Origin: a virus
DNA length: 22,445 nucleotides
IMG/VR virus record: IMGVR_UViG_3300021247_000023
Coordinates: 267-22,711 of that record
Strand: one strand, 5' to 3'
The position numbers and the translations under genes were made by a program. The notes under the pieces are model-generated. The model was not told the origin of the DNA. It saw only the letters and a list, made by a program, of their open reading frames with translations, and ran no database searches. Shown piece after piece: positions 563 to 22,298 of this stretch (positions are counted from its first letter, which is position 1; every line of letters starts with the position of its first letter).

Positions 563-1056
563 CTGCCACATCTGCGAGTTGTATGGCAGAAGTCCATTAG
601 CTCATTTATTCCGATACCAACAAGAAGAATTACGAGTCCTATCCCGCCAATTAGTAACGCCCATTCGAGTTGCTCTTGTTCCTTTTGCTTCTGTTTTTTT
701 TCCTCATCTTTCAAGGCTTTCATCTCTTTGGCATCAGCCAAGTCCATTTCAGCTTGACGAGACTTAATCTTGTTCCAAACATCAATCTTGCCTGTTTGCA
801 TGAACAACATCTTCAATTCTTCTTCAAAGGCTCTAGCTTGCTCTAGTGCCATCTCAATCTGGAGAGCAGTCCCCATGTTTGAGCCTTTGTTACGCTTTGA
901 TTCAATAAGAGCTTTAGTCGCTACGCTCTTAGCATCAAACATCTTGCCAATCATCGGGGCAAGAGAACCTAAATCGTTGGCTACCTTACTAGCCTTCTTA
1001 ACCATCGAGATAGCTGACTGTATGCCAGCTAGTGCGCTTACTGGGTCTAACATCAT
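559..1056 (-). CDS. Coiled-coil protein with C-terminal membrane anchor (late phage protein)
   Basis: The 165-residue product has three parts: an N-terminal amphipathic helical region (residues 3-55, starting MMLDPVSALAGIQ), a long charged coiled coil (about 62-130, very Lys/Glu/Gln-rich near 115-130), and a strongly hydrophobic helix (about 132-151) followed by a short Cys/Arg-rich tail. From memory, similar proteins (with the run EMALEQARAFEEELKMLF) occur next to lysis and tail genes in many aquatic podoviruses, with no assigned function. The membrane anchor and coiled coil would suit a holin or inner-membrane spanin, but this is inference. The start overlaps the HNH gene stop by 4 bases (ATGA); a second ATG follows immediately, so residue 1 or 2 could be used. 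The stop overlaps the 49-aa gene. Confidence 0.85.
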   Translation of the reverse strand: MMLDPVSALAGIQSAISMVKKASKVANDLGSLAPMIGKMFDAKSVATKALIESKRNKGSNMGTALQIEMALEQARAFEEELKMLFMQTGKIDVWNKIKSRQAEMDLADAKEMKALKDEEKKQKQKEQEQLEWALLIGGIGLVILLVGIGINELMDFCHTTRRCGR

Positions 1057-1541
1057 GCTACCTCTGGCAAATTGTAATATTGCTTCTCGCCAGCTTTTCT
1101 AGCGGCAACAGCATCATCCAAATTTTTATAGTATCCAAGCCACTTGTTCTTTTTATTTACTTTTACATAAACAGTCCAGCAGTTATGGCTTTTAATCCAT
1201 GACACACCAATATGACCACTCTTGTTATGTTTAGGCAATGATATGTTTTGTGCGTTATCAGTTCTGCTTACATCACGCAAATTGCAAAGTCTATTGTCAT
1301 TCCTAATTCTATTTTTATGGTCAATGTCCCCATCTGGAAATTTACCATTTACATAAAGCCAAATTAACCTATGAACACGATAACTTTTATTTTGTATTTT
1401 TACCGCATAGTAACCAGAACTATTTAATGAATTTGCTTGTTGCCAAGGATTAACATTTCTACCATTACCATTACGCCAAAGTAGCATCCCACTTTCAGCG
1501 TCATAGTAAAAGATTTTTTTGACTGTTTCTTGGTCTATCAT
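1053..1541 (-). CDS. HNH homing endonuclease with AP2-type DNA-binding domain
   Basis: This 162-aa free-standing homing endonuclease carries an HNH_3-type nuclease core: VHRLIW (His57-Arg58), DIDHKN (Asp74-His75) and the following Asn-rich RIRNDNRLCNLR segment (residues 78-89), which together supply the metal-binding His/Asn residues. The C-terminal half (about 107-157: SGHIGVSW, WTVYVKV, KWLGYYKNLDDAVAARK) is a standard AP2-like DNA-recognition domain. Such genes cut an unoccupied allele of the same locus and spread by repair. The gene looks more A/T-rich than its neighbours, as expected for a mobile gene. Its ATG overlaps the stop of the small ORF 1538-1663 by 4 bases and its stop overlaps the ATG of the 165-aa gene by 4 bases, so it sits in the operon without breaking it. 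A purine-rich AAAAAGG precedes the start. Confidence 0.93.
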   Translation of the reverse strand: MIDQETVKKIFYYDAESGMLLWRNGNGRNVNPWQQANSLNSSGYYAVKIQNKSYRVHRLIWLYVNGKFPDGDIDHKNRIRNDNRLCNLRDVSRTDNAQNISLPKHNKSGHIGVSWIKSHNCWTVYVKVNKKNKWLGYYKNLDDAVAARKAGEKQYYNLPEVA

Positions 1542-2550: not shown

Positions 2551-4323
2551 TCAGTTTGTTTCAAGTTGTGCGACACGGGCGCGGAGTGATTGGATTTCCT
2601 TGACCAACATTGGTACAAGTTTGGAATAGTCCACAGCCATCATTTCTTCTGTGTCAGCGGGTTGGTGTACTGCTTCAGGGGCAACAGTTACTAATTCTTG
2701 AGCGACAAAGCCTGCACGTTGATGTGTTCCGTCTGTTTTCCAGTCGTAACTACGAACCTTAATTGAATCAATGACACTACCAAACTCAGGAGCATCAACA
2801 ATATTCTCTTTCAGGCGTTGGTCAGAAGTTACGTTGTACAGAACCGCTGAAGTCCCAGATTGGGTAATAGAGCCAATTACCCCTCCGTTGTAACCAAAAT
2901 ATTCAAATACAGAACCACTTGATGTTCCTGTATGGTTAACAATTAAATATCCATCTCCACCAACATCAGCAATAATAGATTTAGTGTTTGTTACTCCTGC
3001 CGCAGTATGCCCAACACACAAATTGCCAGACGCATCTAGCGTCATTGCTTGGGTAAAGGAGATGGCAGTTCCTGCATTGCCTGATGCGGCGGTGTACCAA
3101 GCAAAATAACTTGATTGTCTAAATCTGGTAGCGGCATCACCAGTATTCATGTATGTGAAAGTTTCATTGCCAGATGTTTTGGCGTTCCACAACAAATTAC
3201 CTTCGCAAGCTCCATTCCCATGACCAGCCAAAGACCAATAATTTGCATTAGAAGAAATGCTTATTGCTCGATAGGTTGCATCTTGTGTTTGAGGAGTCAC
3301 CCCGAGGGCGAGGTTGCCTGCGCTGTCGAGGGTCATTGCGCTCGTCCCTCCACTAACTCTCCAGTTGTGAGCCAATGCCCAATACTGAGGTGTTAGATAT
3401 GTGGAAGTCGAGCGGTTGTAGTTGAAATAAATTGGGTCTGTGCCGCTGATACCAGCGGGGTCAATCTCAACAACAGGGCCACCATTTGCAATCGATAGTT
3501 TTCTTTGAGGCGAACTCGTCCCAATACCCACATTGATGCCGCTTGCGGTGTATAGCGATGTGCTTGTTAGGCGCATTACTTCAGAAGCACCATAACCAAA
3601 CACTAAATTATTTGAGTAACGTAATGCCGCATCAGAAGTTGATAATCCTGTTATCAATGTTGCACCAAATCCAACATATAAAGGAGCACTACTGCTATTA
3701 CTAAATGTTTGGTAACCCCCAACAGCAGAACTAGATTCAATAGTGGAAATTGAAGGATTACTAGTAATTACATGGAGTTTTGCACCCCCAGAAGTACCAC
3801 CAACACCCAAATTAGCCCCATCAAAAGTAAGCGCAGAGCCACTTGTCAGAACCTTTGAGCCGTTCAGGTAGCAAACAGAGTTGGCTGTACCGCCAGAGAT
3901 GGTGACAGCACCAGAGGCTGACAGAGTAGTAGCTGATACAGCCGCAGGAGTTGTAGAACCCAATGCAGCAGGAGATGCCCAATCAGCACCATCTAGCAAG
4001 TCAACATTAAGGTTAGCTACCTTAGTCGTAGAAGCTATTGTTAAAGGTGCTGTTCCTGTAGCCAATGTAGATGTAATAACACCTGTAGCAGAGACTGTAG
4101 TAAACGCACCAGAATAAGCCGTAGTAGCACCGATAGTGCCGTTCATAGGGCCGTTAAATGGGTCACCAGAAGCACCAGATTGCCAGCTACGAACTTGAGC
4201 CATCAAGTCACGAATAGCATCGTTAATGCCAGATGGCGCACAGCCCTCTGCAATGTTTATGCCATCAATGTCTGTGTTGCTTGCAGGAGTGGTACTCCAT
4301 TCGCTGATTTTTGTCTTTGCCAT
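2551..4323 (-). CDS. Tail fibre protein with C-terminal S74 intramolecular chaperone
   Basis: The 590-aa protein begins with the segment MAKTKISEWSTTPASNTDID, a start common in phage fibre proteins, then a helical segment (AIRDLMAQVRSW), and continues as Gly/Ser/Thr/Ala-rich beta repeats. Several copies of a D-x-x-G-N-L-x-(V/L)-G unit (FDGANLGVGGTS, LDSAGNLALGVT, LDASGNLCVGHT, and the related GINVGIGTSSPQRKL) mark the shaft. The last 91 residues are a peptidase S74 chaperone: SDQRLKENI with the Ser500-Lys505 dyad, YDWK, RAGFVAQEL, APEAV, VDYSKLVPMLVKEIQ and a terminal coiled coil. S74 domains drive trimer folding and then cut themselves off just before the serine, so the mature fibre probably ends near residue 499. 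GGAG lies 8 bases before the ATG, inside the last codons of the previous gene. Confidence 0.93.
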   Translation of the reverse strand: MAKTKISEWSTTPASNTDIDGINIAEGCAPSGINDAIRDLMAQVRSWQSGASGDPFNGPMNGTIGATTAYSGAFTTVSATGVITSTLATGTAPLTIASTTKVANLNVDLLDGADWASPAALGSTTPAAVSATTLSASGAVTISGGTANSVCYLNGSKVLTSGSALTFDGANLGVGGTSGGAKLHVITSNPSISTIESSSAVGGYQTFSNSSSAPLYVGFGATLITGLSTSDAALRYSNNLVFGYGASEVMRLTSTSLYTASGINVGIGTSSPQRKLSIANGGPVVEIDPAGISGTDPIYFNYNRSTSTYLTPQYWALAHNWRVSGGTSAMTLDSAGNLALGVTPQTQDATYRAISISSNANYWSLAGHGNGACEGNLLWNAKTSGNETFTYMNTGDAATRFRQSSYFAWYTAASGNAGTAISFTQAMTLDASGNLCVGHTAAGVTNTKSIIADVGGDGYLIVNHTGTSSGSVFEYFGYNGGVIGSITQSGTSAVLYNVTSDQRLKENIVDAPEFGSVIDSIKVRSYDWKTDGTHQRAGFVAQELVTVAPEAVHQPADTEEMMAVDYSKLVPMLVKEIQSLRARVAQLETN

Positions 4324-8452: not shown

Positions 8453-9226
8453 TCAACCTATAACAGCATATTTATATGTTTTTCCAGCAGTTGTATTGGC
8501 TAGATGTGTGATTGTTGCTGTTCCTTGCCCCTGTGAGCTTACATACATTTCTGGAAGTGGTGAAACCAATGTAAATGTAATCACACTAGATGGAATTGAT
8601 GGTCTTGTAAATGGGCTTGTTGATGCTGTATATCTCTCAAGATAAACCTGAGTAGATGTTGTAGCGGCAATAAGTTCAACATAGTCACCAGCAGATACAT
8701 CTATAAAGAAATTAGCAACAGCAATCAAATAACCATCAGTACCACCATGACTATTGACAACAGCATATTTGCTTCCAGTTCCTGTAATGTCAGTACCATT
8801 TTTTCTTAACCAAATAGTTACTTCATGGATTTGAGTATCCATATTGGCAAACTGTAAGCTAAATTGAATGTTATATGTACCTGCGTTAGTAATCGTTACT
8901 TTATTAGAAGCAAGACTAAATCCATAAGCAGAATCAGTTGTGTTAAATGCAACTACTGTAGGCGTATTAGCCGTTGCAAATGTCTGGTCAGCATCATTCT
9001 GAAAAGCACCACGAGGAACAATAGACCTTGATGCCTCAAACGTACTAGGCGCAAACAAAATAACGCTGTCTGGGCCTATTCTGCGGTCTGTAATGGTTGT
9101 GGTTGTTGCGCCACCAGTAGCAAGCGTTACTGAGCCTGTGTTATTTGTCTTTCCATCCATGATGCCACGGACAACCTCGGCTACTGCCCTCTGGTCACCA
9201 CCAAATGCAGGAAGACTTCTAAACAT
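8453..9226 (-). CDS. Tail or decoration protein with nested C1q-like jelly-roll domain
   Basis: The ATG at 9226 (MFRSLPAFGGDQRAVAE) overlaps the previous stop by 1 base (TGATG) and has AAGGAG 7 bases upstream, so I prefer it to the TTG one codon earlier; length 257 aa. The N-terminal part (about 14-62) holds VAEVVRGIMDGK and a beta segment with TTITDRRIGPDSVILFAPST. The C-terminal 30 residues (SSQGQGTATITHLANTTAGK, then TYKYAVIG) look like the second half of the same small phage domain. Between them (about 73-221) sits a C1q/TNF-like jelly roll: YGFSLASNKVTITNAGTYNI, TIWLRKNGTDI, NFFIDVSAGDYVELIA. This suggests a receptor-binding or surface-decoration role. The domain calls are from pattern memory. 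Confidence 0.78.
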   Translation of the reverse strand: MFRSLPAFGGDQRAVAEVVRGIMDGKTNNTGSVTLATGGATTTTITDRRIGPDSVILFAPSTFEASRSIVPRGAFQNDADQTFATANTPTVVAFNTTDSAYGFSLASNKVTITNAGTYNIQFSLQFANMDTQIHEVTIWLRKNGTDITGTGSKYAVVNSHGGTDGYLIAVANFFIDVSAGDYVELIAATTSTQVYLERYTASTSPFTRPSIPSSVITFTLVSPLPEMYVSSQGQGTATITHLANTTAGKTYKYAVIG

Positions 9227-10668
9227 CAACGAACTCCTTGAGGCGTTACGTCAACATCTACAGAAATGGCATTTTTCCAACTAGAACCTGTCGGAGTGAT
9301 TTTCAGTCGGTGATAACGTCCTGCACTTCTCAATGGAACACGATTTTCTGAACTTGCAGCTACAGCAGTATTAAAAGTTACACCTTGGTCTAGCAATGTA
9401 CGAGATGCAATCGCAACAGTTGCAGAACCATTGTCAACAATAGGTCTAGCCAAAGTCACAACAGAGTTAGCACCAATGTCTAAATCTCCAGTTGCAATTA
9501 CACCTGTTTGATTAGCACCTGTGTAAGTCATTACCCTGTCGCCTAGCGTACCACCCAAGAAGTACTTGCCACCAACATACAAACGTGAATCTAATGATGT
9601 AGTCAAAGCATCAATAGAGCCTGAAATACTGTCCAATTGCTCAAGTGTTACAGATGATGTGGAAGCTTCTGATAAGTAATCAGTACCAGCATCGCCATAA
9701 GTCCACTTCTGTGTTTTGAAGTTGTAAATCAAGACATTACGATTTCCATAAATAGTCTTGTAATTCCAAATCACAAGTTTACGGATTGGGTCAACAGCAG
9801 CAGACATTGTGCCGTAATCAGAGTCGGAGGCATTGTCGATAAAGTATCGGTCAATCTTTTCTGCACCAATAGGTGTGATATTTTGTCCATCACACATATA
9901 GAAACCATCATCTGACAGGAAGAATGTAATACCTTGGTACTGAGCAATTGAGCCAGATACCATACATCCCTTACCACGAGAGATATTGTCAAACTGGAAA
10001 ATGAATGGAGTTCCAACATAGCTCATGCGATGAATAGCACGCTCTAAGAACACCAATCCAAACTCACCTCCACGGATGCCTACAATCTGTCCACCATCAG
10101 GAATGTCCTGATAATCAGATTGAGTGTTTACGTCCTCAGTCCAGTCTGTTTCATCGTTAATAGCTGACCAGCGAACACGATATTGCTTTTGTTCAGCAGA
10201 CTCGTATGTATTGGCAACAACTACAAAATCACGAACAACAGTAATGTATTTAGCTACAGGTGCAGTTGTAGATAAATCAGCAAATGATGTAGATGTTCCT
10301 AAAGTCCAAGACTGTAACTTTTGTGAATTATTAGTTGAAATAATGGTAGAGCCAAACTGCGTAAAACGAACCTTGTCGTTAGTTCCAGTTGTCATTCCTG
10401 ACTTAACTTGCGTAATAGCACCAACACCACTTACTGTGTAAATCTTGGTTGAACCAGCAGCAAATAGTGCTGTATCTCCATTTGGTTGTTTGGCAGCATA
10501 TAGAGTGGTTAAGTCCTCAGATGCAGAGGATGTAGAAAATGTCACAGGCGATGGAAATGGGCCATACCCAATAGCCTGAGATACAACATTCTTAGCGTCA
10601 GTTAAAGCACCTGAAACGCTAGGTTGGTCAGGCATCCACTCACCAAATGTTAGTTTTGTCGTAGCCAT
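9226..10668 (-). CDS. Putative tail hub / packaged-DNA stabilisation protein (P22 gp10-like)
   Basis: The 480-aa protein is almost all beta: repeated short segments such as LYAAKQPNGDTALFAAGSTK, RFTQFGSTIISTNNSQKLQS, ITVVRDFVVVANT, GLVFLERAIHRMSYVG, ITFFLSDDGFYMCDG and VLIYNFKTQKWTYGD alternate with turns, as in a beta-propeller. The motif VRWSAINDETDWT is a hallmark of a broad family of podovirus tail proteins that includes the P22 gp10-type packaged-DNA stabilisation (nozzle) proteins. The C-terminal part (about 380-480) looks like a separate beta domain. It overlaps the repeat-protein gene upstream by 19 bases and has a good AAGGAAG ribosome binding site. Its place after the adaptor matches the P22 order. 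The exact tail ring it forms is inferred. Confidence 0.78.
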   Translation of the reverse strand: MATTKLTFGEWMPDQPSVSGALTDAKNVVSQAIGYGPFPSPVTFSTSSASEDLTTLYAAKQPNGDTALFAAGSTKIYTVSGVGAITQVKSGMTTGTNDKVRFTQFGSTIISTNNSQKLQSWTLGTSTSFADLSTTAPVAKYITVVRDFVVVANTYESAEQKQYRVRWSAINDETDWTEDVNTQSDYQDIPDGGQIVGIRGGEFGLVFLERAIHRMSYVGTPFIFQFDNISRGKGCMVSGSIAQYQGITFFLSDDGFYMCDGQNITPIGAEKIDRYFIDNASDSDYGTMSAAVDPIRKLVIWNYKTIYGNRNVLIYNFKTQKWTYGDAGTDYLSEASTSSVTLEQLDSISGSIDALTTSLDSRLYVGGKYFLGGTLGDRVMTYTGANQTGVIATGDLDIGANSVVTLARPIVDNGSATVAIASRTLLDQGVTFNTAVAASSENRVPLRSAGRYHRLKITPTGSSWKNAISVDVDVTPQGVR

Positions 10669-11540
10669 GTGTTACTTCCTTGCGCCTGAATTGTCCAATC
10701 GTTGTCATTAGCAGCAACTGGTGTCCATGTATTTGAATCTCTTGAAACTACAGTCCAAGTATTAGAGTCTCTGCTTACTGGTGTCCATGTGTTGTCATCA
10801 ACGACAACAGGTGTCCAATTGTCACCAAGGATAACGCCATTCGCAGTAATCGTAGCAATTGCAGTAATCGCAATTACATTTCCATATGTCGCATTGGCTT
10901 GTGCTGTTACATCAGCCGTAGCCTCAATACTAGCTACCGCATCTCTAACTTTAATTGCTTCAGCCGTAACAGTTGCTGTAGCGTCAACACTAGCAGAAGC
11001 ATTTTGCTCACGGATAGCAGATGCAGTTACTGTTGCATTACCAGTAACACTAGCAGCACCTTCAGCAACCAAGCCACCATTTGCAACAACATCTGCTGTG
11101 CAAGTAATAGATGCAACACCATCCTTGATGATTCCACCATTAGCAGTTACATCAGCACTAGCAGTAACACTACCACTTGCAAACTGAACCCTAATAGCAT
11201 CAGCAGTAACAATCGCTACTGCATCAATTCCTACTGAAGCATTTTGTACACGAATACCTGTACAAGTTGCACTTGCAGAACAATCTATGCTTGCACTAGC
11301 ATATTGGACACGAGTTCCATCTGCCGTTACTGTCGCTGCTCCATTTACTGCCCCAGAACCATACTGAACCCTAGTTGCATCGGCTGTAACGCTTGCAGAA
11401 GCAGTCACAGACCCATAAGCATCCCATAGGGTTACTGATGTTTCGTAAAGTGGACTATCGAGTGTGAGTGTTAAGTCATCAATGCTTGACTTTAATTGGT
11501 CAAGCGAATCAATAGTCCATGGAGGCAGTAAATCAGCCAT
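10650..11540 (-). CDS. Two-part repeat protein: ten 20-residue beta repeats then six Trp 10-residue repeats
   Basis: The 296-aa protein has a short helical head (MADLLPPWTIDSLDQLKSSI), then about ten units of exactly 20 residues (44-240) on the pattern S-V-x-x-x-A-x-V-T-A-x-A-x-R-V-Q-x-A-S-A. Six units of exactly 10 residues follow, with Trp at 242, 252, 262, 272, 282 and 292 (consensus SNTWTPVSRD). The first block should fold as a regular beta-solenoid; the second looks like a stack of Trp-anchored turns. No signal peptide or catalytic motif is seen. Located between a small structural protein and the tail hub, it is probably a virion spike, fibre or adhesive appendage. It starts 1 base after the previous stop with a weak ribosome binding site (GTGAG). 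Function is unassigned. Confidence 0.85.
   Translation of the reverse strand: MADLLPPWTIDSLDQLKSSIDDLTLTLDSPLYETSVTLWDAYGSVTASASVTADATRVQYGSGAVNGAATVTADGTRVQYASASIDCSASATCTGIRVQNASVGIDAVAIVTADAIRVQFASGSVTASADVTANGGIIKDGVASITCTADVVANGGLVAEGAASVTGNATVTASAIREQNASASVDATATVTAEAIKVRDAVASIEATADVTAQANATYGNVIAITAIATITANGVILGDNWTPVVVDDNTWTPVSRDSNTWTVVSRDSNTWTPVAANDNDWTIQAQGSNTWLRQN
10653..10820 (-). repeat. 30-bp coding tandem repeat, tryptophan-anchored, about 6 units
   Basis: The last 56 codons of the repeat protein form units of exactly 30 bp, each with an (A/N)-x-W core: NWTPVVVDD, NTWTPVSRDS, NTWTVVSRDS, NTWTPVAAND, NDWTIQAQGS, NTWLRQN. At DNA level the middle units are very close to identical (repeated GTGTCCA and GAATCTC-type words on the plus strand), so these duplications are younger than those of the 60-bp array before them and could change copy number by slippage or recombination. 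Confidence 0.85.
10821..11411 (-). repeat. 60-bp coding tandem repeat, about 10 diverged units
   Basis: The DNA encoding residues 44-240 of the repeat protein is a tandem array with a 60-bp period. Units begin at residues 44, 64, 84, 104, 124, 144, 164, 184, 204 and 224. They share GTRVQYAS-like and VTASADVTA-like segments but have diverged at most positions, so protein periodicity is kept without recent DNA duplication, except for closer pairs such as units 1-2 and 5-6. No insertion or deletion disturbs the period. Confidence 0.85.
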
Positions 11541-11541
11541 C

Positions 11542-11928
11542 TCACGCCAAAGTAACGCTCAATGAACCAGCAGCAATGCGGAACACATCGCCTGTAGCAA
11601 TTGTTTTAGAAGCGTCTAGTGGTGTGTGATACAACAAATTTCCACCTGTCAAAGCATCACGAATACCGACATAGGCAACAGTTCCCCAAGAGCCACCAGC
11701 TTGAGGAAATTCAATAGCTGCGGAATTGGTAGAAGCACCATTGCTAGGCGCACCAAAAGTAACTGACTGACGAGCATAGCTAGTGCCAGATACTTCAGTA
11801 CCTGTATCAGCATCTGTAGGGTCAGACGTATAAAGTGCCAGATACACAGTTGTTGGTGCTGTGTATGTTGTTGCTCGCAATGTGCCGTTAATCAGCGCAT
11901 TTTCGAGATAGTTACTCATTTCTGCCAT
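11542..11928 (-). CDS. Small beta-rich phage structural protein
   Basis: The 128-aa protein has a short helical start (SNYLENALINGTLRATTY) and then a pattern I know from small tailed-phage structural proteins: TTVYLALYTSDPT, GTEVSGTSYARQSVTFGAPS, EFPQAGGSWGTVAYVGIRDA, GGNLLYHTPLDASKTI and a final GDVFRIAAGSLSVTL. In databases such proteins are often called putative tail fibre or capsid-associated protein; the exact role is unclear. All of it looks like a compact beta sandwich without a signal. An AAGGTG ribosome binding site precedes the ATG at 11928; a second ATG three codons later is also possible. It lies 4 bases after the adaptor gene, so it is made together with head-tail joining proteins and may decorate the tail or adaptor ring. 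Confidence 0.8.
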   Translation of the reverse strand: MAEMSNYLENALINGTLRATTYTAPTTVYLALYTSDPTDADTGTEVSGTSYARQSVTFGAPSNGASTNSAAIEFPQAGGSWGTVAYVGIRDALTGGNLLYHTPLDASKTIATGDVFRIAAGSLSVTLA

Positions 11929-14890: not shown

Positions 14891-15126
14891 AGAATCTTCC
14901 ACTTTTTCTCTTTGATTAAGGATTCTGAGGCTAAGCCTTCTAAGTGTCCTGTAATCAATTCAATTGTCTTTATGTGCTGATAAGCGTTTTCACGCTTATT
15001 TATTTCACTAGCACTTGTGTTAATTATTACACTAATCTGCTCTTTTTTCAAATTATCTATGACTTCTTTGAAAAAGTCATCTTCTAATAGATTTTTAGCC
15101 CATTGTGCTACTAGGTGCTTGTCCAT
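14887..15126 (-). CDS. Small helical phage protein, 79 aa
   Basis: The product starts MDKHLVAQWAKNLLEDDFFK and is helical throughout, with a central polar stretch (INTSASEINKRENAYQHIK) and a lysine-rich end (IKEKKWKIL). I know similar small proteins with the ends D-x-F-F-x-E-V and K-E-K-K-W-K-I-L next to portal and scaffold genes in podoviruses, but their role is unknown. The start overlaps the end of the 735-aa gene by 32 bases in another frame, and the region is A/T-rich. No membrane segment, signal or metal-binding motif is visible. A portal- or scaffold-associated assembly factor is possible from position only. Confidence 0.75.
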   Translation of the reverse strand: MDKHLVAQWAKNLLEDDFFKEVIDNLKKEQISVIINTSASEINKRENAYQHIKTIELITGHLEGLASESLIKEKKWKIL

Positions 15127-17302
15127 ATTGGTTTTGTATTCCAGAAATAATATCGTTGATAGACAAACTGCTTGCTGATGGATAACCTTGTTTGCTACCC
15201 AAGATTCCCATTAAGTCGTTGTAACTCAAGTTTGAGGATTGTGCAAACTTAACTGGCTCTGGTACTTTGCCATAGTTAGGGTCAAGAAATTTCTCCCATT
15301 GTGTACCAATAAGCAAATTACGAGTACCAAAATCAATTGGTGTTAGTGGCGTAAATGGCGCAACTCCAGTTTTAGGAGGAGTTTTCCAACCCTCTGGTAC
15401 TGGAACAACGTCAAAACCAGTTGGCGTACTAGTATTAGACAATACAGAACCAGCACCAAGCAAACCAGCAGCAGTTAAAGCCAACTGAGCTACTTTTAAT
15501 GGGTCTGTCTTTGTTTCTGGTGTTGTAGTAGTTGTTGTACTAGGTGTTGTAGGTGTTGTTGCAAGCGTACTAATTACACTAGGAATCGTTGTAGTTAAAT
15601 TTGGATTAGTTCCAGTTATATTAACTGTTGGAACATTAGGAGTCGTAGCCAACAAATTCACTACTTGGTCAGCAGTAAGATTCTTATTGCCAGTTACATT
15701 TACAGTTGGTGTTTGTACTGCTCCACTAACTGCATTTAGTGCCGCATTTAGTGTTTGTTGGTCAATTTGCTTGGGCGCAGAAACAGTCAATGTAGGGGCA
15801 GTTGATGCAATTGTATTAACAACATTGCCTAATGATGGTGCTGTTACATTAACAGTTCCTGCACTTGGTGTAGTTGGTGTGTTTAAGATTGCATTTGCAC
15901 CACCAGTATTACTGATGAAATCGTCAATCTGAGTATTAGATAAACCTATTCGTTTTAAATCATTGATGAAGTTTGTTTCAGTAGCATCAGCAATTTGCTC
16001 TGGTGTCATTTTGCTAAAGTCAACTGGTACATCCATTGAGGCAATATAGTCCTTCAATGTGCTGCCAGCATAAGCACCACCACCACCCAATAAAGCTGCT
16101 CTTAAAACATCTTCTTTGCTACCACCTGTCAGAGCAGTAGAACCACCCGCAATGGTTGCACCTGTAGCACCAGCTAAAGCAGGGCCTGTTAGACCAGTAG
16201 AACCTGCAATTAAATTGCTTAGATAGGGCGCACCAAGAACACTAGCTGTCAATGCTAGAACTGGACGAGATGCAGCCAACAATCCTTGGTCACCACCGCC
16301 AGCAAATGTACCTGAATCAATTACTTCACCAGTTTTAGGATTAACAATCTGCCAATTGGCTTTATTGTTTGGGTCAACTCTTGTTTCATAAACAACTTGA
16401 GGAACACCAGCAATCTGTTGTTCGATGTTATCGCCCTCAATAACAGTACCTCTAGCAGTTGGTATTACAGGCATAGTTTGTCCAGTCTGTGCTAATTGTG
16501 TAATCTGTGCTGGTGCAGTTGCAACCACATTAGATGTTTGTACTTGCTTAATAGCATCTGGTGTACTAGGAGGAACTTCATTTTTAAATTGAGACAAAGC
16601 ATCAATAACTGATTGGTTATAGATTGCCGTACCTTCTGCATTTGTATGCAAAGCATCTACCAATAATTTCTTATTTTGTAAAATCTCACCTTGAGTTCCA
16701 ACTAAAGCAACATTCTTGTTTTCTTTAGCAATCTCATTAAATAATGGGTCAACTTTAGGGTCAAAGTTGTTTGTAACTACATCATTGATGGATACGGCAT
16801 AAGGAGAACCAGTCAAAACAACATTAACACCTTGGTCACCCAAAGTTTTAACAATCTGATTGATGTTATTTTTGATAGTTCCTTTATCCACACCTTGCAG
16901 AAAATCTACACCACCAGTTTGCAAAAATACAGTAGCGTTAGGGTCAAACTGACCACCACCAGCCAAAAAAGTATTTAACTGATTGAGAGTGTCAGCAGTC
17001 GTTGCACCACCTACAGCTACATTAGTAGTCGCTTGTCCTGTGGCTTTAGCAAGTTCTTCAGGAAGTGCAGTATTAAGACTATTCCAACTAGCACCAGCCA
17101 TGATGTTTCCACCAAGCAAACCACCTGATTTGCCACCAGTTGCATTGGCTACATCTTCTCCTGAGATACCATATTGAGCCATAGCTGCTTGTGTTGCAGC
17201 AGCATCAGGATTAGTAGCTAAGAAATCACGAATAGTTGCATAAAGGTCTTCAGCAGAACCACCTGTGTTCATCCGATAGCGCATTGCATCAGAAATAGCC
17301 AT
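15095..17302 (-). CDS. 735-aa protein with divergent SGNH-hydrolase-like domain and VNVT repeats
   Basis: Residues 1-60 are helical (start MAISDAMRYRMNTGGSAEDL). Residues 66-240 match the SGNH/GDSL hydrolase order: GASWNSL (block I, Ser72), NVAVGGATTAD (block II, Gly98/99), FLQTGGVDFLQG (block III, Val132 where Asn is usual) and DALHTNAEG (block V, Asp216/His219). So the Ser-Asp-His set is present, but GDS is GAS and GxND is GGVD. A Gly/Ala hydrophobic region (341-415) follows, then repeats around TVNVT or TVNIT (483, 533, 559), a poly-Thr run (584-598) and a Pro-rich end. It lies 2 bases after the portal gene with AAAGG as ribosome site. It may be a virion protein that deacylates surface glycan or lipid, or a catalytically dead binding fold. 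Confidence 0.75.
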   Translation of the reverse strand: MAISDAMRYRMNTGGSAEDLYATIRDFLATNPDAAATQAAMAQYGISGEDVANATGGKSGGLLGGNIMAGASWNSLNTALPEELAKATGQATTNVAVGGATTADTLNQLNTFLAGGGQFDPNATVFLQTGGVDFLQGVDKGTIKNNINQIVKTLGDQGVNVVLTGSPYAVSINDVVTNNFDPKVDPLFNEIAKENKNVALVGTQGEILQNKKLLVDALHTNAEGTAIYNQSVIDALSQFKNEVPPSTPDAIKQVQTSNVVATAPAQITQLAQTGQTMPVIPTARGTVIEGDNIEQQIAGVPQVVYETRVDPNNKANWQIVNPKTGEVIDSGTFAGGGDQGLLAASRPVLALTASVLGAPYLSNLIAGSTGLTGPALAGATGATIAGGSTALTGGSKEDVLRAALLGGGGAYAGSTLKDYIASMDVPVDFSKMTPEQIADATETNFINDLKRIGLSNTQIDDFISNTGGANAILNTPTTPSAGTVNVTAPSLGNVVNTIASTAPTLTVSAPKQIDQQTLNAALNAVSGAVQTPTVNVTGNKNLTADQVVNLLATTPNVPTVNITGTNPNLTTTIPSVISTLATTPTTPSTTTTTTPETKTDPLKVAQLALTAAGLLGAGSVLSNTSTPTGFDVVPVPEGWKTPPKTGVAPFTPLTPIDFGTRNLLIGTQWEKFLDPNYGKVPEPVKFAQSSNLSYNDLMGILGSKQGYPSASSLSINDIISGIQNQYGQAPSSTMG

Positions 17303-21134: not shown

Positions 21135-22298
21135 TTACTCATTATATCCAAATTCGTATGGATAACCTTCTGTTGATAAAGTTTTAGCTTTTACATTTTT
21201 CTTAATAATTTCAAAATCACCATCAAGCACATTTTCACCATGCCATTTAGCGTAGTCTTTGCTTGTTGTAACCCAATCTCCATTATTAATATTTTTAACG
21301 CCTTTAGGAACAGCACGATAAACTTCAATTTCTGCTTCTGGCTTTCCTCGTGCTTTTAATGCAGCAATCCTCCATTGAGAATCAATCATTGCATTACCAA
21401 TGCCATAAAGCTGTTTACCACGAGCATCATAGACATCTGCTGGCATTATTTGAGTCAAGTCATCTAATGTAGCTCCATAAGTTTTGGCGTTAGGAGCAGT
21501 ATGAGAACCACGATACTCACTAACATCTTGACCAAGCAATCCAGTTTCAGGTGTTGGGGCAATGCGCTGTTGCATTTGAGGAGAAATCATATTGACTGAT
21601 GAATTTTCATCAATCATTCTATAAACATCATCCAATGTAGCATCAGGCATATTAGGCGGTCTTCTACCTAATTTATAAGCATTTGTAGCTGCTGCTTTAG
21701 AAGAAACTTGTCCCTGCATATCAGGAAAGTCTTGCAAAACTTTAGACTGCAACAAACTTCCAATTCCTTGACCTCGGAATGTCTCTGGAACTTGTAACTC
21801 TAATACAGACGCAGTTCCATCTGGACGAGCCAAAACATCTATTGAACCACCGCTTCTTGGGTCTGTATATTTAACTCGTTGTGCGCCAGCACCAAAAATA
21901 TCTGAAGCATCACGCTTGGCAATATCAAGCAAACCTTGTTGACCAACATCTTTAATGCTTGCACCAACTGGCAAACCTTTAGTAGCTTGCATCAATGCTC
22001 TAAAAGTAGGTGCAACAAATGGCGCAACATTCATCATTGCTTCCGCAGTCTCAGGCTTTAGCAATGGCACATTAGCACGATTTACATTGGTTAATGCGTT
22101 TAGCAGACCAGTAGGGCTTTCAGCGTATGCTGCTCGTTCTACTGTTTTAGGGATTCCTGTACTTTCCAATAAACTAGCCAAACCCTGCATTTGCTGAGTT
22201 CGTTGTTTATCTCTCATGTAACCAAGCAAGCCTTGGATAGCATCGTTAGATAACCCTGTTAATGGGTTAGCGTAAGGAGTAGCCCTTAAATCAGCCAT
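21135..22298 (-). CDS. GNAT-like plus ADP-ribosyltransferase-like (ART-PolyVal-type) protein
   Basis: The 387-aa protein starts with helices (MADLRATPYANPLTGLSNDA). About residues 140-235 look like a GNAT acetyltransferase: IDVLARPDGTASVLELQVP as strands and RGQGIGSLLQSKVL (175-188), which is the acetyl-CoA loop Q/R-x-x-G-x-G followed by a helix. Residues 263-387 match the phage polyvalent-protein ART type: GSHTAPN, YDARGKQLYGIG, VYRAVPKG (Arg328), GDWVTTSKDYAKWHGE (341-355) and a final YEFGYNE. So the R, the Ser/Thr strand and a terminal acidic residue of R-S-E ARTs are present. It is preceded by a DUF6496-like gene (TAATG coupling) and followed by terS. An injected host-modifying or virion-associated effector is likely; activity is unproven. 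Confidence 0.75.
   Translation of the reverse strand: MADLRATPYANPLTGLSNDAIQGLLGYMRDKQRTQQMQGLASLLESTGIPKTVERAAYAESPTGLLNALTNVNRANVPLLKPETAEAMMNVAPFVAPTFRALMQATKGLPVGASIKDVGQQGLLDIAKRDASDIFGAGAQRVKYTDPRSGGSIDVLARPDGTASVLELQVPETFRGQGIGSLLQSKVLQDFPDMQGQVSSKAAATNAYKLGRRPPNMPDATLDDVYRMIDENSSVNMISPQMQQRIAPTPETGLLGQDVSEYRGSHTAPNAKTYGATLDDLTQIMPADVYDARGKQLYGIGNAMIDSQWRIAALKARGKPEAEIEVYRAVPKGVKNINNGDWVTTSKDYAKWHGENVLDGDFEIIKKNVKAKTLSTEGYPYEFGYNE

Follow-up and report, generated by a model that had tools for sequence, protein, structure and literature searches.

Fibre I of podophage GP4 is reportedly built from five gp80 dimers, held together by what has been called an 'elongated rope protein'. The fibre I protein of this phage is Gp80, and its chain, 8jou_a, is present ten times in the PDB entry. 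The neck of A-1(L) bears five chain-like fibres, attached to a 15-fold ring, but in contrast to the arrangement considered here, the beads of these fibres are stacked trimers joined head to tail and no rope protein is described (PMC10966104). In LSH1, a three-gene module (gp34-gp36) places a Gp80 homologue beside a protein with a long, poorly modelled region, which AlphaFold renders as a poor, low-confidence beta-helix that trails into disorder. The authors doubted this helix, did not explain its cause and cited Slicko01 for relatives of the long-region protein (PMC13243795, 2026). A described mode of fibre attachment is provided by SU10, in which the dock loop of the nozzle protein gp17 contains Trp839, Trp847 and Trp857, at spacings of 8 and 10 residues. 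These three residues form a quasi-threefold star that holds the trimeric short tail fibre (PMC9509320).

The DNA analysed here (the window: 22,445 nucleotides from IMG/VR virus record IMGVR_UViG_3300021247_000023) is, from its gene content, a fragment of a short-tailed phage. The module encodes, in order, an SU10-type portal, a scaffold, an SU10-type capsid protein, an SU10-type adaptor, a Gp80-family protein, a 296-residue repeat protein, which we refer to as the rope, and a nozzle/stabilization protein (Table 1). A single base separates the stop codon of the Gp80 gene from the ATG of the rope gene, and this 1-bp gap is found in nearly all relatives checked, the rest having a different close junction. 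The original prediction had placed the repeat protein in a tail region and suggested that it might be a spike or appendage; the neighbouring genes confirm the tail module, and a role as an appendage is likely. Table 1 also includes three other genes of the window, one of which encodes a protein with a weak GDSL-type match. A GDSL/SGNH hydrolase has been detected in the particle of Sinorhizobium phiM5, and its gene lies between the capsid and adaptor genes.

Table 1. Positions of the features in the window, with the evidence for each
Feature	Position	Strand	Evidence or remark
HNH endonuclease gene, end of structural module	1053..1541	(-)	
Tail fibre protein, candidate trimeric partner	2551..4323	(-)	phrog_5668 4.5e-29
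Nozzle / stabilization protein	9226..10668	(-)	8zkk nozzle gp16 2.2e-8; phrog_3287; overlaps rope ORF by 19 bp
Nozzle loop, residues 340-366, same triple-LD motif	9571..9651	(-)	hhalign and motif scan
Rope-like repeat protein, 296 aa	10650..11540	(-)	ATG at 11540; no Pfam/PHROG match
C-terminal Trp array, residues 242-296, Trp every 10	10653..10817	(-)	six Trp invariant, 48-sequence alignment
Ten 20-residue beta-units, residues 43-242	10815..11414	(-)	z20=16, unit alignment
N-terminal triple-LD motif, residues 8-34 (LDQLKSS/IDDLTLT/LDSPLYE)	11439..11519	(-)	common to nozzle protein
Gp80-family protein, proposed bead	11542..11928	(-)	Pfam PF23140 2.1e-51; GP4 fibre protein 8jou_a 4.2e-14
735-aa protein between portal and scaffold	15095..17302	(-)	weak GDSL-lipase/acylhydrolase match, PF00657 1.4e-5
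Gene adjoining the terminase gene	21135..22298	(-)	ParB C-terminal-domain PHROG match

Architecture and predicted structure of the repeat protein

Searches of Pfam and PHROG with the 296-residue protein returned no families and no PHROG matches. When the protein was compared with itself at successive offsets, the z-scores relative to shuffled sequences were 16.0 at an offset of 20 residues (z20), 10.3 at 40 and 6.2 at 10. This signal corresponds to ten successive 20-residue units, residues 43-242, that follow each other without insertion or deletion, in agreement with the original prediction of about ten such units. In an alignment of the units, column 7 is Ala and column 3 is Val or Ile in all ten, column 10 is Thr and column 11 is Ala in nine of the ten, and small or hydrophobic columns alternate with polar ones. 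The mean identity between the ten units is 39% at the protein level and 49% at the DNA level, which means that diverged units follow one another at an exact period. Trp residues are located at positions 8, 39, 242, 252, 262, 272, 282 and 292; given eight Trp in 296 residues, the chance of even four of them occurring at an exact spacing of 10 is approximately 6e-5. The last six, which the original prediction had also picked out, form an array in register with the repeats, since Trp242 is the last residue of unit 10. The observation of ten units plus a Trp array is thus confirmed to be far beyond chance.

To follow the protein among related phages, we kept 80 IMG/VR loci that encode relatives of the rope with 47-99% identity. 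The six array Trp are invariant in a 48-sequence alignment of relatives, and six Trp at a spacing of 10 are present in all full-length same-class relatives listed. Relatives with differing numbers of units, a search for which had been suggested at the outset, do exist: whole-protein lengths of 296, 276 and 216 residues step in multiples of 20, with indels of one or two residues in addition (295 and 294 residues). A second class, represented by Methylophilales phage Venkman gp51, has another N-terminus, the same 20-residue repeats and either four or six Trp, and in this sister class the array has been extended from four to six by one 20-residue insertion. Venkman gp51 (L083:8866-9582) is annotated as 'putative E3 ubiquitin-protein ligase HERC6', a name that we consider to be an artefact because the product contains 20-residue repeats followed by a Trp array. 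One of the longest ropes encountered as a separate protein is a 707-residue product encoded after Gp80 (L280:5523-7646), which contains roughly 30 Ala-rich 20-residue units (z20 = 12.3).

AlphaFold2 monomer models have a mean pLDDT of 46 for the window protein and 54 for the Venkman class. The 20-residue tier is modelled as a low-confidence strand repeat (pLDDT mostly 50-75) with about two strands per 20 residues, and the Trp tier, with a pLDDT of about 30-38, looks unfolded as a monomer. It had been proposed that both periods stack on one shared solenoid with the Trp residues forming a ladder; with low confidence in both subfamilies, we reject this as the best reading. The original prediction had set against its own proposal a disordered, low-confidence model and homologues that lack the periodicity; the model is indeed of low confidence, but the homologues strictly keep the period. 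Poor models together with strict conservation would be expected of segments that become folded upon contact with a partner, more so than of a free-standing solenoid or a drifting linker. The matches in BFVD were uncharacterised phage proteins; one of them, a weak match, is from Roseobacter phage CRP-5, which also has a Gp80 homologue.

These models also bear on the solenoid view of the original prediction, put here as a free-standing beta-solenoid shaft, possibly trimeric, with 20-residue rungs of two strands each that resemble the DUF2807/GIN domain and with the Trp array as a continuation or cap. The two strands per 20 residues in the AlphaFold2 beta-repeat models and the alternating columns of the units are as expected of such a shaft, and the likeness to the DUF2807/GIN-domain beta-helix as a short-rung beta-repeat came up from several queries, with weak recurrent matches to 3lyc and 4opw and a PF10988 match (E = 0.0035) for MEP402 gp62. 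However, we consider a free shaft unlikely, since there is no confident model and no residue with a pLDDT of at least 90, Foldseek gave no significant match to the PDB (E of 0.2 or worse; 3lyc, E = 0.34), the window protein matches no Pfam family including DUF2807, the DUF2807/GIN domain has no link to Gp80, and a free shaft would not explain the pairing described below. Moreover, a similar low-confidence beta-helix was seen, and doubted, by the LSH1 authors (PMC13243795).

Pairing of period-20 genes with Gp80

To avoid circularity, loci were fetched using Gp80 queries only (MEP402 gp63 and BcepMigl gp56), together with two bacterial loci; a wide Gp80 alignment was too diverged to serve as a scan query. 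In the MEP402 gp63 set, the gene directly after Gp80 has a z20 of at least 4 in 49 of 79 loci, compared with 0 of 441 ORFs located elsewhere than at positions -1 to +2; in the positive genes, the highest-scoring period is always either 20 or 40. Since the loci inside one set are related, the cluster count provides a fairer figure: when the proteins of all Gp80 sets were clustered at 50% identity, a period of 20 was found in 15 of the 34 clusters of neighbours versus 1 of 277 in the background (Fisher P = 2e-15). About half of the clusters at position +1 are without a clear period of 20, some being diverged or fused and others unrelated proteins. In the reverse direction, a Gp80 gene (E < 1e-44) is present in 13 of 20 long contigs picked by the rope alone; from their coordinates, most of the remaining contigs appear to end near the expected place of Gp80, with L106 as an apparent exception.

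Podo-, sipho- and myophages all provide examples of the pairing. It is seen in Bcep22-like phages, Zobellviridae, Sinorhizobium phiM5, Ochrobactrum OH, Bacillus SP-15 and mycobacteriophage Hocus, in the last of which the repeat gene is located upstream of Gp80, and in weaker form in Psychrobacillus PVJ1 and Sporosarcina Lietuvens, where the repeat-like part is the N-terminus of a protein that also contains a baseplate domain. A functional link of the rope to Gp80 is well supported. The 20-residue repeat proteins beside Gp80 are named 'serine-rich adhesin' or 'HERC6' or are unnamed, and in most of those tested the repeat belongs to no Pfam or PHROG family. The first of these names would suit a surface adhesin or mucin-like spacer, in which the repeats provide only length and the Trp array binds a glycan or the host surface, and both the Ala/Ser/Thr-rich composition and the fusion of the repeat to adhesin-like domains in Slicko01 and Hocus are in keeping with this. 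Nevertheless, the cluster counts show that the repeat tracks Gp80, and invariance of the Trp array across 48 aligned relatives is unusual for host-binding tips, making an adhesin or spacer very unlikely in our view.

BcepMigl, a relative of GP4, enables the locus to be compared with fibre I. Its gp52, gp54, gp55, gp56, gp59 and gp60 match GP4 capsid or tail chains (8h89, 8jov and 8jou), and no PDB chain was matched by gp53 or by gp57, which is encoded directly after the gp80 homologue; gp58 was left out of the query. The gp57 homologues of BcepIL02, DC1 and CSP3, which come from relatives of GP4 and not from GP4 itself, have z20 values of 7.3-7.6 (7.6 for BcepIL02 gp56) and end in a short Arg-based array with steps of about 10 residues. 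Given this clear 20-residue periodicity of its homologues, its position directly after the gp80 homologue and the lack of a PDB match, gp57 appears to be the best candidate for the GP4-type rope gene. No rope chain was found when the PDB was searched with several different ropes and profiles.

Homology of the window rope to the Bcep22-like rope family phrog_19041, which BcepIL02 gp56 matches at 3.5e-158, was not detected (0 PHROG matches). The likeness to GP4 fibre I resides in the presence of a Gp80-family bead gene beside a repeat gene, the putative counterpart of the GP4 rope gene, and, in relatives of GP4, also in a period of 20 and a short C-terminal array of about 10 residues per step. 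It differs in that the array of the window rope is Trp-based, whereas those of Bcep22-like ropes are Arg-based, and in that the nozzle-like N-terminal motif of the window rope is not seen in Bcep22-like ropes. Our best reading is that the rope and the Gp80 beads of the window form a variant of GP4 fibre I in which each end of the rope bears a proposed docking motif.

As a blind check on the pairing, a comparable arrangement is present in Slicko01, which encodes a tail protein of 1843 residues in which the period of 20 is confined to residues ~900-1750 (z20 up to 10.8). Among the proteins tested in the Slicko01 tail region, this is the only one with a 20-residue period, and a Gp80-family gene is located two genes away (E = 8.6e-8). 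Judging by the size and gene context of the 1843-residue protein, it is probably the one meant by the LSH1 authors. The LSH1/Slicko01 module resembles the window in that a Gp80-family gene accompanies a long region for which AlphaFold yields a poor beta-helix, with a period of 20 in the Slicko01 region. In this module, a lyase-like adhesin and the repeat are joined in one protein, whereas the window rope is encoded separately and ends in a Trp array.

The two ends of the rope

The N-terminal triple-LD motif of the rope is shared with a loop of the nozzle protein encoded by the following gene (hhalign, P = 1.3e-5 with 48% identity over 27 columns). Three LD or ID steps at a spacing of 7 are found in 103 of the 1698 distinct ORFs of the loci analysed, comprising 52 ropes, 49 nozzle-like proteins and 2 others. 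The triple-LD loop of the nozzle is at roughly the place of the SU10 dock loop, a correspondence that is approximate because the direct alignment of the window nozzle with SU10 gp17 extends only upstream of the dock loop. Zobellviridae-type ropes (L170, L187 and relatives) have an N-terminal 8-residue array (GDSRITEA...), and the next gene often shares this motif, which could represent a second shared docking motif.

At the other end, the Trp array resembles the SU10 fibre dock in that Trp residues of a tail protein are spaced 8-10 residues apart, but SU10 has three Trp on its nozzle, whereas the window has six on a separate protein. In Zobellviridae-type ropes, three C-terminal Trp units are found 13-15 residues apart in 54 of 55 sequences. 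On the basis of the three-Trp star of SU10 and these three-Trp ends, we read the array as a docking segment that may fold upon binding to an oligomer, for which a trimeric fibre is the most likely candidate, and this is the weakest part of our interpretation. The N-terminus of the window tail fibre (INIAEG) resembles by eye the docking segment YIYEG of SU10 gp16. In a gene located after Gp80 in L286, the C-terminal 10-residue array mixes Tyr and Trp at equal spacing (SQSY, SQSW, SNIY, SQVW), which suggests that conservation at these positions is for an aromatic side chain in general and not for Trp in particular.

The idea that the number of Trp comes in multiples of three was not upheld, since 3, 4 and 6 occur across the classes. 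These numbers, which grow by two in one lineage, would be more in line with an array that anchors the rope to another ring (the adaptor, the nozzle or the head vertex) or that binds Gp80, either of which is compatible with a bead-bearing rope. Either role is possible but doubtful, considering the three Trp units of nearly all Zobellviridae-type ropes, the use of three Trp, 8 and 10 residues apart, to dock a trimer in SU10 (PMC9509320), and the presence, in several phages, of a tail-fibre type gene directly after a rope with a Trp array.

Proposed role as a rope with Gp80 beads

We conclude that the 296-residue protein is probably the rope of a bead-on-rope virion fibre, with putative sites for Gp80 on each unit and putative docking motifs at its ends. 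The ten 20-residue beta-units would serve as repeated binding sites for the Gp80-family protein encoded upstream, such that Gp80 subunits would be spaced regularly along an extended chain. The ends of the rope, both of which are quasi-repeated (the triple-LD motif at the N-terminus and the Trp array at the C-terminus), would dock to oligomeric parts of the tail, among which trimeric fibres, or the ring to which these are attached, are the most likely. This explanation is supported by the repeat architecture, by the pairing with Gp80 across unrelated phages, by the change of length in whole units and by the motif common to the nozzle. From these observations we infer that Gp80 binds physically to the rope, that one unit accommodates one Gp80 subunit or dimer and that the Trp residues dock a trimer.

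Since the sequence is much less well conserved than the period, the bead and rope pair is hard to see by homology, and the lack of a family combined with misleading names renders a widespread virion part nearly invisible to annotation. The pairing provides a simple rule for detection (a neighbour of Gp80 with a period of 20), offers a candidate gene for the GP4 rope and may explain the unmodelled region of LSH1 and Slicko01. It is quite possible, although we propose this tentatively, that many unrelated tailed phages use one fibre design, in which each 20-residue module holds one Gp80-type subunit. There would then be as many beads as modules (about 5 to 40), and a single chain would be able to dock a trimeric fibre through quasi-symmetric aromatic arrays at its end. 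The prediction that follows is that the number of repeats would set both the number of beads and the length of the fibre.
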